The position numbers were made by a program, and so were the translations under genes. This document shows positions 23,613 to 58,685 of a stretch of 64,000 nt of DNA, in pieces (position 1 is the stretch's first letter; every line of letters begins with the position of its first letter). Under the pieces are notes generated by a model. That model ran no database searches. It saw only the letters and a list, made by a program, of their open reading frames with translations, and was not told where the DNA came from. Origin of the DNA: Rhizoclosmatium globosum (Eukaryota > Chytridiomycota > Chytridiomycetes > Chytridiales > Chytriomycetaceae); the NCBI GenBank assembly GCA_002104985.1, contig MCGO01000052.1:1-64000 (forward strand), written 5' to 3'.

Positions 23613-25466
23613 TTACGTTGAATGCTCGTTCTTTTGAGCTTCCTTCCTCTTTGCTCGCTTCAATATTCCCCACTCCATCAGAAACATGGACCCTGTAGTT
23701 ACTGCTGCACCGAATCCGAGCATTCCAAAGCTACTCCAGTCAGTAGGTTTAGTGACAAAGCCAATTGTGACAAAGGATATCCCAACAGAAGCCATAAACA
23801 GAGCTCGCTTCCTTGACGATATGTTTTCCCTTCGTTTTCGACTTTTCTCGTCACTTTCTGTCGTATGTCGCTGGAATGGAAACCGATTTCCTTCTTGTGA
23901 TCGAAAGGATATCCATCGACTAGGAACCTCCTCTTCCAAATGCAACAGCCGTAGAGTCACGAAAGCAAGAAATACAACTCCATGACTGGTAAAGTAAATC
24001 GCCACATAATCCCCCTTCAACCTCGGACCAACACCTTCACTCAAAACCCCATTCGCATCCTTTGCAAACTCAACTTGCACCAAATTTGCCATACACACAC
24101 CAAGCGTAATCACACCCAATACAAGCGGTGTATGCACGAACCGCCACAACACATTCGTAAACCAACTCCTCACAAGCGCATGTTTAAAGTGATTCCGGCC
24201 CTCCGCCCTGAAATACATTGTGTTCAATGAAACCGCAATCAACAGCGCAAGCATCATGAGCCCCAACCCGTTTTTAATCCATGAGAGTTGTGCGTCATAC
24301 AAGAAGGAAGCTGCAACAGTCCCAATCGCAATTACATAGAGCCCACCATGTCGTTCGACTGTGTGTTCAAAGTTCAGGGCGATTCTGTACGTTTTTCGGT
24401 GCATGTATTGATTCAGTTTCTGGTTTGTTGCGTGGAGCGCTTCGACGGGGAGGATGAGACTCATGAGAAGGATGATGATGGGAACGTTGATGTCAAGAAA
24501 TATTCCGAGGAACCATAATACTTGGCGGAGTGTTTCTCTAGTTTGGGTTCCATTGATGGGACAGAATACGACTGCAAGGTAAAAGAGGCTGGCAATGAGG
24601 CGGAAGACTATGCCAGGAAGACTTGATTTTGAAAATTGTGGGTTGAAAATGCAAATAGAGACAGCTTGAGCAAAGGAGAGATACAGTTGAGAGGCGCAAA
24701 AAGCTGTCAAAAAGACACCAGATGTGTTGAGAACTGGGTCTGGATTGAATGCATTTGTGCAAGTGTTTCCCATAATCATTAACGCTGAAGAAAGAATAAA
24801 AGTATGAATCTTGTGGTAGAAGTCGCCATGATGGATGGATTGGTTGTACAACGTCACTCGTTCCCAGTGAATAATAGCAGGAATCATGATGAGAACAAAG
24901 TCCTTGACGGACTCCCAAGTTTGATTTGTTTGCACGAGCAGACCTGCCTTATAGAAAACCGAAATGTATAAGAGATCTGTGAATGTTTCAGTGTATGAGG
25001 TGCGCAGTTCATCACTGCTGCGATAGAGAGTATTTCCATAGTAATATTGCCGTATCTTTGGTTTACGAAAAAGCTTTTCCTTTGCTTTGATGTTGTGGGT
25101 ACGAACGATTTGGACGTCTTCAAATGTGACTTTTTCGATGTGATTTGGATTGCTCTCTCCCAAAAGATCAGGTGAATTAGGCGAGTCCCACTCATCCAAG
25201 TAAGCCGCCGTTGAATCGGATGAACTGATTTCATTTTGACTTTGTGTTTCAGATGTGTCTTCCAACTGCTGCATGGCAAGACAAAGAAATGAAAGCTCCT
25301 CAGTGCGCACAGCCAATTCGTGTTGATAATAAGCCCTGAGTTTATCATTATTTTGTGGGGCTTTTGCCTGAGTACGGCTTGGATTGTCAATGTCGCCTAC
25401 TATTATTTTCAGAGACGAAGAACATTCATCTTCGGTTTTTCTTTGCCGATCTTGACCACATGTCAT
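23613..25466 (-). CDS. LtrA-like multi-pass membrane protein
   Basis: One uninterrupted 617-codon ORF. An N-terminal hydrophilic region of about 150 residues precedes roughly a dozen hydrophobic segments. FTDLLYISVFYKAGLLV and the later ERHGGLYVIAIG match the pattern of the low-temperature-requirement A family (FDLxFVxxF, ERHGLFxIxxLGE). The function of LtrA proteins is poorly known; a membrane transporter or sensor role is inferred only. It converges with the ABCC gene (about 70 bp between stops) and its start codon abuts a tRNA-like fragment on the other strand. No frame break, unlike the neighbouring ABCC gene. Confidence 0.65.
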   Translation of the reverse strand: MTCGQDRQRKTEDECSSSLKIIVGDIDNPSRTQAKAPQNNDKLRAYYQHELAVRTEELSFLCLAMQQLEDTSETQSQNEISSSDSTAAYLDEWDSPNSPDLLGESNPNHIEKVTFEDVQIVRTHNIKAKEKLFRKPKIRQYYYGNTLYRSSDELRTSYTETFTDLLYISVFYKAGLLVQTNQTWESVKDFVLIMIPAIIHWERVTLYNQSIHHGDFYHKIHTFILSSALMIMGNTCTNAFNPDPVLNTSGVFLTAFCASQLYLSFAQAVSICIFNPQFSKSSLPGIVFRLIASLFYLAVVFCPINGTQTRETLRQVLWFLGIFLDINVPIIILLMSLILPVEALHATNQKLNQYMHRKTYRIALNFEHTVERHGGLYVIAIGTVAASFLYDAQLSWIKNGLGLMMLALLIAVSLNTMYFRAEGRNHFKHALVRSWFTNVLWRFVHTPLVLGVITLGVCMANLVQVEFAKDANGVLSEGVGPRLKGDYVAIYFTSHGVVFLAFVTLRLLHLEEEVPSRWISFRSQEGNRFPFQRHTTESDEKSRKRRENISSRKRALFMASVGISFVTIGFVTKPTDWSSFGMLGFGAAVTTGSMFLMEWGILKRAKRKEAQKNEHST

Positions 25467-25540
25467 GGGCGAATGGCCAAATGGTTACCGCGCTCGACTA
25501 TGAATCAAGAGGTTCTAGGTTCGACCCCTGGTACAGATCC
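25467..25540 (+). other. tRNA-like fragment (pol III A and B boxes), possible SINE head
   Basis: Box A (TGGCCAAATGG, 25474-25484) and box B (GGTTCGACCCC, 25518-25528) sit at tRNA spacing. A T-arm folds (CTAGG/CCTGG) and an imperfect anticodon arm can be drawn with ATG in the loop. The acceptor stem fails: 5' GGGCGAA does not pair with 3' TACAGAT. A purine-rich stretch with A runs follows to about 25645. It is therefore read as a tRNA pseudogene or tRNA-derived SINE head. No second copy occurs in the window. Confidence 0.5.
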
Positions 25541-25717
25541 TGTTGCTGAGAGGAAGAAAGCCGGAAAAACTCCGGGTAAACCCCAACGGAAAATGAGATC
25601 GGATAAAAAAGATAACAGTGTGAAAATTGCATTCGAGAAAAAAACACGAGCCAACTGATGAGGCCTTGCCTCCTATCTATTCTTCTCATTCTTTTGGTCG
25701 CCACTTCTGTCATTCAT

Positions 25718-28700
25718 ATGGCTCAAAACAACTTCCATCGCACTCGCCATGTTGGAGCAAGACAAGCTACTCGACCAGAACTACGTTGTGTAATGGGGCC
25801 ACTCTTACAAGAGTTTGCAAGAAATGTGTCCCTCCTACGCTCCGATGCCATGCTTGCAATCAACCTTCACCTAGAGCGCAACCCAACTGGTATTTAACAG
25901 CTCAAATTAATATCGTTTAAATTCATTGGGACTTAAAATTAGGTCACGATCATCTTGACATTGAGTTTTCAGAATCCTTCTTCCAATTTGCACTCAAGTA
26001 TGCTTCTGGAAATCTGCTCGCCAATAATTATCATGCCCCACTTCCAATTGGTTTTGTACTTCCTGGCAATCCTGTTGGCACACCCTACATCCTTCCAGTT
26101 GGTGCAGCCCTTCAGGCACACCAAAACACCCGCCGTTCTGTCACAAGACATTACTTGTTGGAAACTTTCCAAAACTTTCATCATCCATTTAGTTGTGACA
26201 ACAATGGTTTTCAGAATGGACAACCCATCCAACCTGGTCTTCGAATGGTTCCCCTCTTTAACTGTCCCGGCTATGAATGGGAGCAAGTTATTGCCATTGA
26301 AGCCAAACGATTGCGTACAGACTTTGAAAATGCACTTGCTCGCAGATTCATTGCCAATTTAGGCAAGCTGGCTGAGGAGGTTTGTTGATCTTGTCTGAAA
26401 TTTACTTTAAATCTTACAACATAATTCAGGTTTTCAACTTTCATTGCTTCCTGCATGGATACCAACCTACCGCTGTTATCAAGGCAACTGCAAAGACAGC
26501 AATATACAATTACCTGACCCCACCATTTGGTGCCCCACTTGCACTTCCTGTAGCAGTTCCACAGGCAGTGACCAACAATATTGTTGCATTTCTTCTCCAT
26601 CACAGACAGTTTCTTGTTGCCATGCCCTTCAATAACATTCAGCGTGGCCCACACTTTGAAATGAATCTTATTAGGGCAATGTCAAGAATGGGCAATAATA
26701 TTTTGGCTTATACCAGAGAGTAAGTTTTTATCTGTCAAGCCTTCATTTGCTAATTTCAAACATACTACCATTGAAACAGTTTTATTCGCCCAGATATGGC
26801 ACTCCTTGGAAGTGAAGCTTATTTTTCTCTTGCACCACTTCCAACCAATGCTACCACGGCTCAAGCAGTCTTTTGTGGGATAGACTATCGTGTTCTATGT
26901 CAATATTTTATGCCACGACTGAGGGACCTTTTGGGGCCTCTTGCTGTTCCACTTCCTCAACCACCAGGTGGAGTTAACTTTCCACCTTCACTTGTAGCTG
27001 CTGCTGCACATTTCCAGCACATCATTGTACCTGCATTGGGAATAATTAGTCCACCAAATGGGGTTGGAAGATACAATGGTCATGGAGGGACTCGAGCTGA
27101 ACATCGTGGCATAATTGGACTGTTTTTTCGAGTTGAATCTGTTCGCTGGAGTCGCCACTTGAGGAATGATGTTGATTGTATGTAAAACTTTATTGCATTG
27201 AATAATTCTAAAGGGCCCTAGCTTCATATTATCTTCAAACTGATGGCAGAAGCTTTTCATGGACTCTGAATACCAGACAAGCCTTTGTTCAGAACAATCT
27301 TGCAGCAAATGCCAACAGAGTTCCTCACAAAAGTTGGACTGATGATGCAAATTCACTCCCACAAAATTATAACTATAACCAATTCATGATAAATGGTCGT
27401 GGAATGGTGCGTGTGGATCATCACATAAACAATATGGGAATTGTGAATCAAATTCAAGCTGGAATCTTGGATCCTCACAATGTTATTAGTGTTGACCCAG
27501 GTTTGATTTCTGTGTTTGGCTTACTAAATCAGCTTCTAATATTTATTTTACCTATTTAGGTATCAGGAATGTTGTAACTTGTGTCAATAGTGATATCCAG
27601 CTCCAAATCAACAATGCTGCTGTTGCTCCAGTTCCAGTACCTCCGCCTGCACATCCTCCATCACGACAGATTATTCATGACCACGTTGTTCAGGTTTCCC
27701 ATGGTCATATGCGTCAAATCAATGGTTCTAAGCTCTCTGAAAAGAGGGAAGAGGTGTTCCGAGACAATGATCACCGCATCAACTTTGCATATGATGTCCT
27801 TGCTCAAAATTCTCCACGTGTTATTGGTCAACGTACACTGGGTCATTGGTGTCAATGGACCTGGATGGTCAAGCATTTCCAGTCAGAATTCTTGTTGCAA
27901 GAGTATTCTCGTCCCCAGCATCTAAAGTGGAAGCAGAGCAGTTGTATGAAACACCAGCGGGCTGAACAAGCTCTCATCAATCGTATGGCTGGGCGCATGA
28001 CAGACACTGATTGGAACAGTATGCAAGGCAGGATTGTTCCTGGAGCAAGAAAACTCCGCCGTCGAACACGCCGCTTGAATAATATTCCAGCTTTTCCTGT
28101 TGCACCAGTCTATTTTGCTTATGGCGATGGATCTTGGAATCACCAGAGACCATGGGCACCTGTTCCCAACAATGTCAGTTTAACGCAATGGTTGGCAATA
28201 CTAAATATGTGTTTTTCACACAGAGAATCAGAGAAAAGGCTGCTCATGAGCACTTTGTGTTTGTTATTGATGAGCATTTGACTTCACAGCGGTCCCATTG
28301 TCTCAGTGCTGGCTATGAGGCAGGAGGTGTGTTCCAATATCCACCAGTTGTGACAGTAAGTAATCAACAAAGTAAGTCTTACATTAATGTTGGACTAGGT
28401 TCAACGTCCTATTCTTAGATGCCCCCACAAGAAACGCAAGTTTCAGGATCTTCACTGGAGAAAATACTGCATTGATGATGACAAACAACCAATGCATCCC
28501 TTTGTTCAATGCCCTGATCTTACTAACATCCAGAGTTCAGTTTATGGTCTTGTTGAGTGCCCACTCATTCCAGGACCCCCTACTGTATGTATGCTTGTGA
28601 CTGGTACCAGCACTAACATTTGTTGCTAAGATTGTGGACAAAGATATTCAAGCTGCATGCAACATTCGCCACTTGCTGTTTCATTACAATCATACTGGTG

Positions 28701-28723
28701 GTCGACCTGCAGCTTTCATTTAA
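25718..28723 (+). CDS. Fanzor-type (eukaryotic TnpB-like) RNA-guided RuvC nuclease
   Basis: Nine exons: 25718-25889, 25943-26379, 26430-26719, 26780-27177, 27222-27500, 27560-28173, 28224-28355, 28399-28584, 28631-28723. They sum to 2601 nt, 866 residues, with no stop or break. The C-terminal half carries the split RuvC fold of TnpB/Fanzor proteins: RuvC-I ISVDPGIRNVVTCV (Asp about 524), YGDGSW before RuvC-II, RuvC-II VIDEHLTSQRS (Glu about 747), and RuvC-III VYGLVECP then VDKDIQAACNIR (Asp about 841). Fanzors use a small RNA transcribed beside the gene to cut matching DNA and are carried on transposable elements (family knowledge). The zinc-ribbon cysteines between RuvC-II and III are not in tidy CxxC pairs. 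The start at 25718 is chosen because the in-frame ATG at 25658 would add a secretory-looking leader. N-terminal 500 residues are unassigned. Confidence 0.85.
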
Positions 28724-28854
28724 CAGCCCTGGATACATTCCTGATTAACAATACAAAGAAATTTGGTATGGCCTTGCTTTCCTTATGGCATAATTCTAAT
28801 TATTTTTTACAGGTATGTTTTTTTCTTTTACCTTTTGTTTTTTTTAATGTTCTT
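28724..28854. other. short interval 3' of the Fanzor gene
   Basis: T-rich sequence between convergent stop codons (28723 plus, 28855 minus). It is one of the places where a guide RNA of a Fanzor locus could be encoded, but no structure was established by eye. Confidence 0.3.
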
Positions 28855-29136
28855 CTAAAATGTTAAATACAGTAATTTGGTCTGAATCTCAGCAATTCTG
28901 CCTTCAAGAGCATTCTGATGTTCGCTGGAGCCAAGCACAACAACTTGGTTGAAATCAGAGTCGTCTGAGAAGGCGAGTGGATTCGTGTCAACCTGGTCAG
29001 TTGTTTCTTAGGCTTCTCAGTCTCATTCACCTGATCTTACCTCTTTCACTACTTTGACCCATCCACCATTCAACCGGAACATCATGTGCATGCCACACAG
29101 CTGCTTTCCTGCTGCATCCAGTTCAGCGCCTTCCAT
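28855..29136 (-). CDS. small hypothetical protein or 3' gene fragment, convergent with Fanzor
   Basis: Two exons, 29136-29041 and 28992-28855, joined across a 48-nt intron with standard ends (GTAAGA...ACTGACCAG); 77 residues. The product contains HMMFRLNGGWVKVVKE then DSDFNQVVVLGSS and ends IQTKLLYLTF. I do not recognise the family. The clean splice junction and good codon content support coding. Upstream minus-strand sequence keeps an open frame a little further (INPRLN before the Met), so it may be the 3' remnant of a larger gene. Its position, tail to tail with the Fanzor gene, could mean it belongs to the same mobile unit (inference). Confidence 0.4.
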
Positions 29137-58057: not shown

Positions 58058-58267
58058 AAGAAATATTGATGGAAGAGGTTTGGTTGGAGAGAAACTTTCT
58101 TTACGGTGGCTCTTGCTTACATGGTTGCTTTATGATTGCTACGTTAGATATGAAAATACATTAGATTTAAATGTTAGCGTTCCTTATACGATTACTGCCC
58201 TCCATAAACAAACACTCCTCTTCTGACTGCATCACCAACAACCACCTCACCGTCAACACGAAAAGGA

Positions 58268-58339
58268 TGCACACCCCAGGAATCGAACCTGGATTTGCTC
58301 GGCCACAACGAGCTGTACTGACCGTTATACGAGGTATGC
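58268..58339 (-). tRNA. tRNA-His (anticodon GTG)
   Basis: 72 nt fold into a full cloverleaf: acceptor GCATACC/GGTGTGC, D arm GTA/TAC, anticodon arm GCTCG-TTGTGGC-CGAGC with anticodon GTG, variable AAAT, T arm CCAGG-TTCGATT-CCTGG, discriminator A. No intron. The extra G at position -1 of tRNA-His is not encoded, as usual in eukaryotes. A and B box promoters are intact. Confidence 0.96.
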
Positions 58340-58685
58340 AGATGATAGTGGAATCAGCATGAACACTATATTGCTTATAGAAAAAGAGTTGTCAAAGATG
58401 AGGACCTTCTCTTGCTGAATCCCGACAATGCCTCGATGTGCATTTGCTTGATGGACGTGATCTGGTGTTGTTGCCAAGGCAGGCAACACAAATCATCAAA
58501 ATTGAACCTTTATTGATGAAATCCATCACTGAAAACACCAATTTGAATTTAAAATCGTTGAAGCAGCAAGCCTTATTTATTGAGGCTGAATGAAATGAGG
58601 CTGTGATACATCAATACTTCAAAAAACATTGGGGGATCATGAAGTATTGGGACAAAAACCAACCTCCAAGAGATTATCTTCCCCT
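58340..58685. other. intergenic, upstream of tRNA-His and YSG member 3
   Basis: About 345 bp with no supported gene. Confidence 0.4.

Follow-up and report, generated by a model that had tools for sequence, protein, structure and literature searches.

A mobile element of 3,473 bp (3.47 kb) lies at positions 25400-28872 of a 64,000-nucleotide stretch of DNA from the chytrid fungus Rhizoclosmatium globosum (contig C369; the whole stretch is called the window here), with TA at 28873-28874, and its sole gene, of nine exons, encodes a protein that we read as Fanzor1-like. The element is likely to be mobile DNA directed to CCTA sites, with a gene product that is predicted to be an RNA-guided DNA cutter whose RNA comes from the right end. 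This reading is built on the gene, the ends, the copies, the target, the empty sites and the ghost elements, all observed in the genome, and on a right-end guide RNA predicted from homology and analogy.

The element and its gene

The ends of the element were defined by a search for other copies, as the original prediction had proposed, and shared homology fixed them at 25400 and 28872-28874. Homology among the copies begins at 25396 and ends at 28874, with unique flanks beyond. Subtraction of the host CCTA (25396..25399, plus strand) leaves the whole element at 25400..28872 (plus strand). The TA at 28873..28874, to which no strand is assigned, is either a target duplication or the element end. 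The left boundary reads CCTA followed by CTATTATTTTCAGAGACGAAGAACATT, and the right boundary, read inward, TA followed by CTGTATTTAACATTTTAGAAGAACATT. Copy boundaries place the left terminal inverted repeat, CTATTATTTTCAGAGACGAAGAACATT, at 25400..25426 (plus strand) and, together with the right-end pattern, the right one at 28846..28872 (minus strand). These 27-bp ends, of the GAAGAACATT type, are imperfect inverted repeats that, compared by eye, match at 17 of 27 positions; their inner 10 bp are identical and lie at an equal distance from the TA.

In the 5' part of the element, a decayed tRNA-Arg(ACG)-derived sequence at 25466..25541 (plus strand) was recognized by alignment. It aligns to three of three loci called tRNA-Arg(acg) by ARAGORN, is itself uncalled, and shows 87-92% identity to at least 20 places. 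The sequence is also present in the near-identical copies and, at 81%, in C367:235, one of the older copies. A- and B-box-like stretches are kept (matched by eye), and the sequence could be a candidate internal RNA polymerase III promoter. The tRNA and Rfam scans of the window returned only a tRNA-His at 58265-58340. The C367:120 copy carries about 217 extra bases near the equivalent of window 25458-25467, flanked by a 10-bp repeat and looking like another insertion.

The intact nine-exon gene with canonical splice ends that had been predicted was borne out. It comprises 2,601 nt and 866 aa with no internal stop in the window copy, and its eight introns of 43-60 bp are all GT..AG. All exons are on the plus strand: exon 1 at 25718..25889, exon 2 at 25943..26379, exon 3 at 26430..26719, exon 4 at 26780..27177, exon 5 at 27222..27500 (holding TDG 439-441, D524 and P525, with the G526 codon split by intron 5), exon 6 at 27560..28173 (RuvC-I after DPG), exon 7 at 28224..28355 (RuvC-II E747), exon 8 at 28399..28584 and exon 9 at 28631..28723 (RuvC-III D841 and the stop).

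An intact copy of the family was absent from the protein database searched, where the R. globosum protein P0001 was the only match found; a search with residues 505-866 likewise gave P0001 alone among 1,383 candidates. P0001 spans the first five exons and the greater part of the sixth, spliced together at identical joins, and matches the C24 copy, which is without 28159-28791. Its C-terminus consists of unrelated residues that can be read, by eye, from the right flank of C24. Judged by these matches, the sole public protein found is the product of the shortened C24 copy. Because of this, the family would likely escape surveys of annotated proteins. The public gene model also uses an upstream in-frame ATG, which adds a hydrophobic signal-like stretch (window 25658-25717), an N-terminal extension that is odd for a nuclear nuclease.

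The protein and its family

The motifs named in the original prediction, DPG, DEHLTS and DKDIQAACNI, are present in that order at 524, E747 and D841. Among the marks of Fanzors described in PMC10711439 are DPG and a RuvC-II glutamate that has moved to a place six residues ahead of the zinc finger; in Fanzor1 the WED domain also has a TDG motif. In the protein studied here TDG (439-441) lies upstream of DPG (524-526), the RuvC-II glutamate stands in the context E747-H-L-T-S-Q-R, and D841 of RuvC-III in DKDIQAACNI. A motif given for Fanzors in 2013 reads D-X(125,275)-[TS]-[TS]-X-X-[C4 finger]-X(5,50)-RD (PMC3627910). The 226 residues from D524 to T750 fit its first part, D-X(125,275)-[TS]-[TS]. 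Relative to the TS pair, E747 matches the register of the published alternative site; this register rests on the TS, and the expected Cys is S754. After TS the protein continues QRSH, and residue 756 is R in the majority sequence of the family. RuvC-III reads KD (840-841), not RD, followed by IQAACNI, so that the aspartate is kept and the arginine replaced by lysine. The ordered set exceeds what chance would give: with a pattern composed when the protein was already in view, none of 20,000 shuffled versions of the majority protein contained the whole set (TDG, DPG, E-x2-TS, D-x3-A-x-NI), and 60 of 20,000 contained the looser part DPG..E..[TS][TS]. The C4 zinc finger is absent: there is no CxxC between RuvC-II and RuvC-III in the copies readable there, and the majority sequence has only single Cys at 782, 798, 812, 828 and 846 in this region.

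The profile check suggested with the original prediction yielded no significant match. The only Pfam model at E up to 10 was OrfB_IS605 (E 0.48, residues 517-545, over DPG), which speaks for the reading preferred here but is sub-threshold at 11.1 bits against a cut-off of 30.5; the majority protein gave E 0.75. Searches of the whole protein against Pfam and PDB sequences produced no significant TnpB or Fanzor match, and neither the C-terminal 403 residues (PDB, PHROGs, NCBIfam) nor the majority protein (Pfam) had a significant match. A search of the R. globosum genome with the PF07282 profile gave 0 matches, with the control matched in 6 of 14, and the viral contigs searched gave none. When TnpB InsQ of E. 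coli was used as a PDB query, it reached the TnpB-like protein L79 (9b0l, E 8.9e-10), and none of the 36 sequences listed was named Fanzor; the silence of single-sequence searches thus says little about Fanzor1s. A single-sequence structure model of P0001, which is without RuvC-II and RuvC-III, had a mean pLDDT of 31.7 and was unusable.

The Fanzor-type assignment therefore stands in part, supported by the TDG, DPG and shifted-glutamate motifs and by an architecture like that of the Spu-1 element of Spizellomyces, but not by the missing C4 finger. Since this published defining feature is missing, the protein is called Fanzor1-like. We read the motifs as those of a Fanzor1-like variant, for which strict membership would need a structure or a deep alignment; its mode of action is probably that of a Fanzor1. 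A nuclease that is catalytic in spite of lacking the usual zinc finger would, if real, be of structural interest.

Copies, target site and empty sites

In the genome searched (56.9 Mb) at least 18 near-identical copies were found, the window copy and the shortened C24 included, together with at least seven that are older or present as fragments (C201:112, C367:235, C373, C179:207, C334:419, C89 and C367:179); with 52 of 142 candidates scored in the protein search, these counts are lower bounds. Additional loci carry right-end pieces only. Among the 17 other near-identical copies, six are undamaged over 2,601 nt, six over the 2,322-2,331 nt examined, and five are altered: C334:277 has a gap of 5 bases that touches one of the splice acceptors, C367:16 a 1-base gap, C201:400 six gap bases (possibly in frame), C334:450 one stop, and C24 its deletion. 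The damaged neighbours of the original prediction were not recovered, as no second copy was listed inside the window among the candidates scored; damaged relatives lie elsewhere in the genome. The window copy itself deviates from the family majority at residues 316 (against 17/17 others), 654 (17/17), 756 (16/16) and 776 (15/16), each compatible, by eye, with one C-to-T or G-to-A change.

Against the majority sequence, seven older copies measured have dN/dS of 0.64 to 2.7 and are pseudogenised, as expected for dead copies. For the most diverged fragment, C112, the ratio was 0.35 when 117 codons were compared with the majority sequence, and 0.37-0.82 when the comparison was with three of the older copies, which is weak evidence of past constraint. 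The value of 0.39 for the young copies (15 silent and 20 replacement changes) carries no weight, since shared differences were counted repeatedly. C112 and C356 share stretches of about 1.28 kb that are 99% identical, with a diverged piece of the gene's last three exons (88% and 95% pieces) and a different right end; they may represent another type of ghost or a second subfamily of Fanzor. An older copy at C334:454000-456900 has an internal inversion of about 1 kb and keeps its right end (98%).

A search of the genome with the right-end pattern gave 33 matches (control 0). These were Fanzor copies and pieces of the right end, the ghosts, short relatives and, in contigs C68, C79 and C326, a sequence that is unrelated. 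This unrelated sequence, AATGTTCTTCTGGCACAAATCCAATACAGGTA, occurs as inverted pairs about 10-11 kb apart in the three contigs (C68:16729 and 27974; C79:617373 and 628618; C326:790 and 10557).

Three ghost elements (C157, C235, C391) of 828-835 bp have a left part of their own and share with the Fanzor element only the last ~195 bp (28680..28874, plus strand) at 92-94% identity. All three adjoin CCTA. Most of the ghost left part is matched at 76-83% by five older loci. The three of these that were read (C63, C1, C221) all have a TTTA target and a block AATGTTCTTC near the right end, and by eye no transposase was seen among their reading frames of more than 120 aa. The old Fanzor copy C373, whose left end is readable, is at TTTA as well.

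CCTA lies directly 5' of the element in 17 of the 18 near-identical copies. The exception, C334:450, has CGCA within a CG run, and its left-flank similarity to C381 and C155 stops there too. The mirror site, GG after the right TA, occurs in 0 of 18. For comparison, CC precedes 147 of the 5,600 TAs in the window on both strands. The joined flanks of the 18 near-identical copies and three ghosts were then searched in the genome for empty sites, and at least three homologous ones were found: C290 for C174, C170 for C399, and C363 for the ghost in C391. CCTA is single at the junction in all three. Thus CCTA belongs to the host, and the insertion either brings about a duplication of TA or has TA as its end. 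In the window, a minus-strand gene that encodes an LtrA domain (E 4.2e-22) is split by the element, and the frame of this gene is continuous across the rejoined CCTA; by eye, the joined flanks of C334:705, C201:304, C201:400 and the ghost in C235 are in frame too. By analogy, CCTA is the predicted TAM.

Deletions close to the junction were seen at two of the three empty sites. The C170 site is identical to the filled C399 over the left 547 bp and misses 17 bp at +2..+18 after CCTA, with further indels at +159, +165 and +253. The C290 site differs from the filled C174 by one indel in 1,108 bp, a 1-bp deletion at +6, and 8 of 21 substitutions fall within 47 bp left of the junction. Of this cluster (C290, 210100-211600), seven of eight are T/A in the empty site and C/G in C174. 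CCTA is intact in both, and the deletions lie within 18 nt of it; the chance of the two together is of the order of 1e-3 by a rough estimate made after the deletions had been seen. At the third site, C363, the nearest indel relative to the ghost in C391 is at +27..+29 in a CTT run, with substitutions at -15, -9, +8, +18 and +19, and from the alignment this pair does not look like the result of a cut near +16. The empty alleles could be scars of RNA-guided homing, in which the nuclease would cut unoccupied alleles beside CCTA, at the stretch matched by the guide of the filled allele, and end joining would leave small deletions. We hold this doubtful; ordinary polymorphism or an excision footprint is more likely. 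If true, traces of a eukaryotic transposon nuclease at work on the empty sites of its own element would be preserved in the genome.

Predicted guide RNA, rival explanations and known systems

A structured RNA overlapping 25541-25717 or 28724-28860 had been suggested as something to look for. The latter side is retained, shifted by analogy with SpuFz1 to about 28792-28874 plus flank, and the former is not favoured. In PMC10432273 the SpuFz1 guide RNA is described as a 75-nt right-end scaffold and a 14-15 nt guide from the flank. Here homology resumes at 28792 in C24 (28792-28874 kept) and in C367:235 (28792-28867 common), and an 83-nt scaffold at 28792..28874 (plus strand) is predicted from this homology and the SpuFz1 analogy. 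The predicted guide stretch would be the first ~15 nt of the right flank (28875..28889, plus strand). Folding of right ends, which have long T runs, was no better than that of shuffles (z +1.1, +0.9 and -0.1). A five-pair hairpin recurs in 4/4 folded right-end sequences, and an alignment of 10 right ends gave a covariation term of +0.2, that is, no covariation. A guide RNA on the 5' side, in 25460-25717, showed no excess stability (z 0.10), and the ghosts share the right end instead; the decayed tRNA-Arg copy lies just upstream of 25541-25717.

In this reading, an RNA made from the right end would take its guide from the right flank. What protein and RNA together would recognise, CCTA followed by the right flank, is just the sequence of the empty site. 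Alleles that lack the element, or sites from which it was excised, would then likely be cut and repaired from a filled copy, so that the element is kept or copied. Spread to new sites would require a transposase in trans. None is encoded in the single-gene element, and the PF01359 search of the genome, which found nothing, is uninformative because its control was also silent.

Other explanations, some compatible with this one, were weighed against it. The protein could be a Fanzor1 relative with the choice of CCTA made by a transposase alone, the nuclease being irrelevant to where copies are found. Gene-less ghosts likewise at CCTA (3/3) would fit, as would the older short relatives with the common inner repeat block at TTTA (3/3 read of 5 loci). 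A transposase acting on near-symmetric ends would, however, be expected to leave roughly half of the copies with the mirror site on their right side, and it is seen in 0/18; the ghosts still carry the right end, and service in trans is conceivable for them. This explanation has a real but minor chance of being correct. Somewhat less probable is a gene that is a mere passenger, with frames intact only because the burst is young and with a nuclease made inactive by loss of the zinc finger. Against it stand D524, E747 and D841, all kept in the majority sequence, and, weakly, the C112 ratios given above (0.35 and 0.37-0.82). For it speak the lack of a C4 finger in those copies that could be read at this place, the five of 17 other near-identical copies that are altered, and the seven pseudogenised older copies (dN/dS 0.64-2.7).

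That the protein is a member of some other RuvC/RNase H family, its likeness to Fanzors being convergent, is very unlikely. It would account for the fact that neither profile nor sequence searches gave a significant match to TnpB or Fanzor, but the ordered motif set, found in none of the 20,000 shuffles, and a host element built like Spu-1 argue against it. The reading of a CCTA-directed element with a predicted RNA-guided nuclease is preferred.

The biological role of Fanzors is stated to be unknown in PMC10432273, and the family described here adds a further system in nature in which Fanzor function can be studied. Its chief asset is that homologous sites with and without the element occur as pairs within a single genome; many near-identical copies, ghosts and a predicted TAM come in addition, and together these make homing and service of the ghosts in trans testable. 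Rhizoclosmatium and Fanzor were not found together in the open full-text literature, to which the search was confined, subscription papers being outside its scope.

The element is like IS200/IS605 TnpB elements, as far as these are described in PMC10711439, in its insertion downstream of a short fixed motif and in a guide that, here by prediction, begins at the right flank; it is unlike them in having inverted repeats, TA at both ends and a spliced eukaryotic gene, and in being without TnpA. With the Fanzor1 elements of Tc/mariner type reported in PMC3627910, some of them Fanzor-only, it shares TA at both ends and inverted repeats, but it has CC on the left only, and no mariner transposase was seen (PF01359, control silent). 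The SfAV Fanzor1 element is, from the accounts in PMC10711439 and PMC3627910, likewise a non-autonomous TIR element encoding only Fanzor1. Its right-end RNA includes the TIR and target duplication (PMC10711439), as would the RNA predicted here; it differs in its viral host, its TTAN duplication and an RNA that was shown by sequencing (PMC10711439, PMC3627910).

The closest likeness is to Spu-1/SpuFz1 of Spizellomyces punctatus, a chytrid Fanzor-only element for which 17 or 19 full copies, 30-33-bp inverted repeats and putative TA duplications are reported (PMC3627910, PMC10432273). The account in PMC10432273 gives it 30-nt inverted repeats, two fixed bases CA at the left, a TAM of CATA and 134 ghost loci, with the transposase not found. 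Two fixed bases before the left repeat, ghosts with a common right end and a transposase not found are thus features of both elements. As described there, Spu-1 has one ORF against nine exons, about 2.1 against 3.47 kb, 633 against 866 aa, and CA against CC before TA. The R. globosum element further differs from the Spu-1 so described in being without the C4 zinc finger, in its imperfect repeats, and in the paired empty sites shown for it here.
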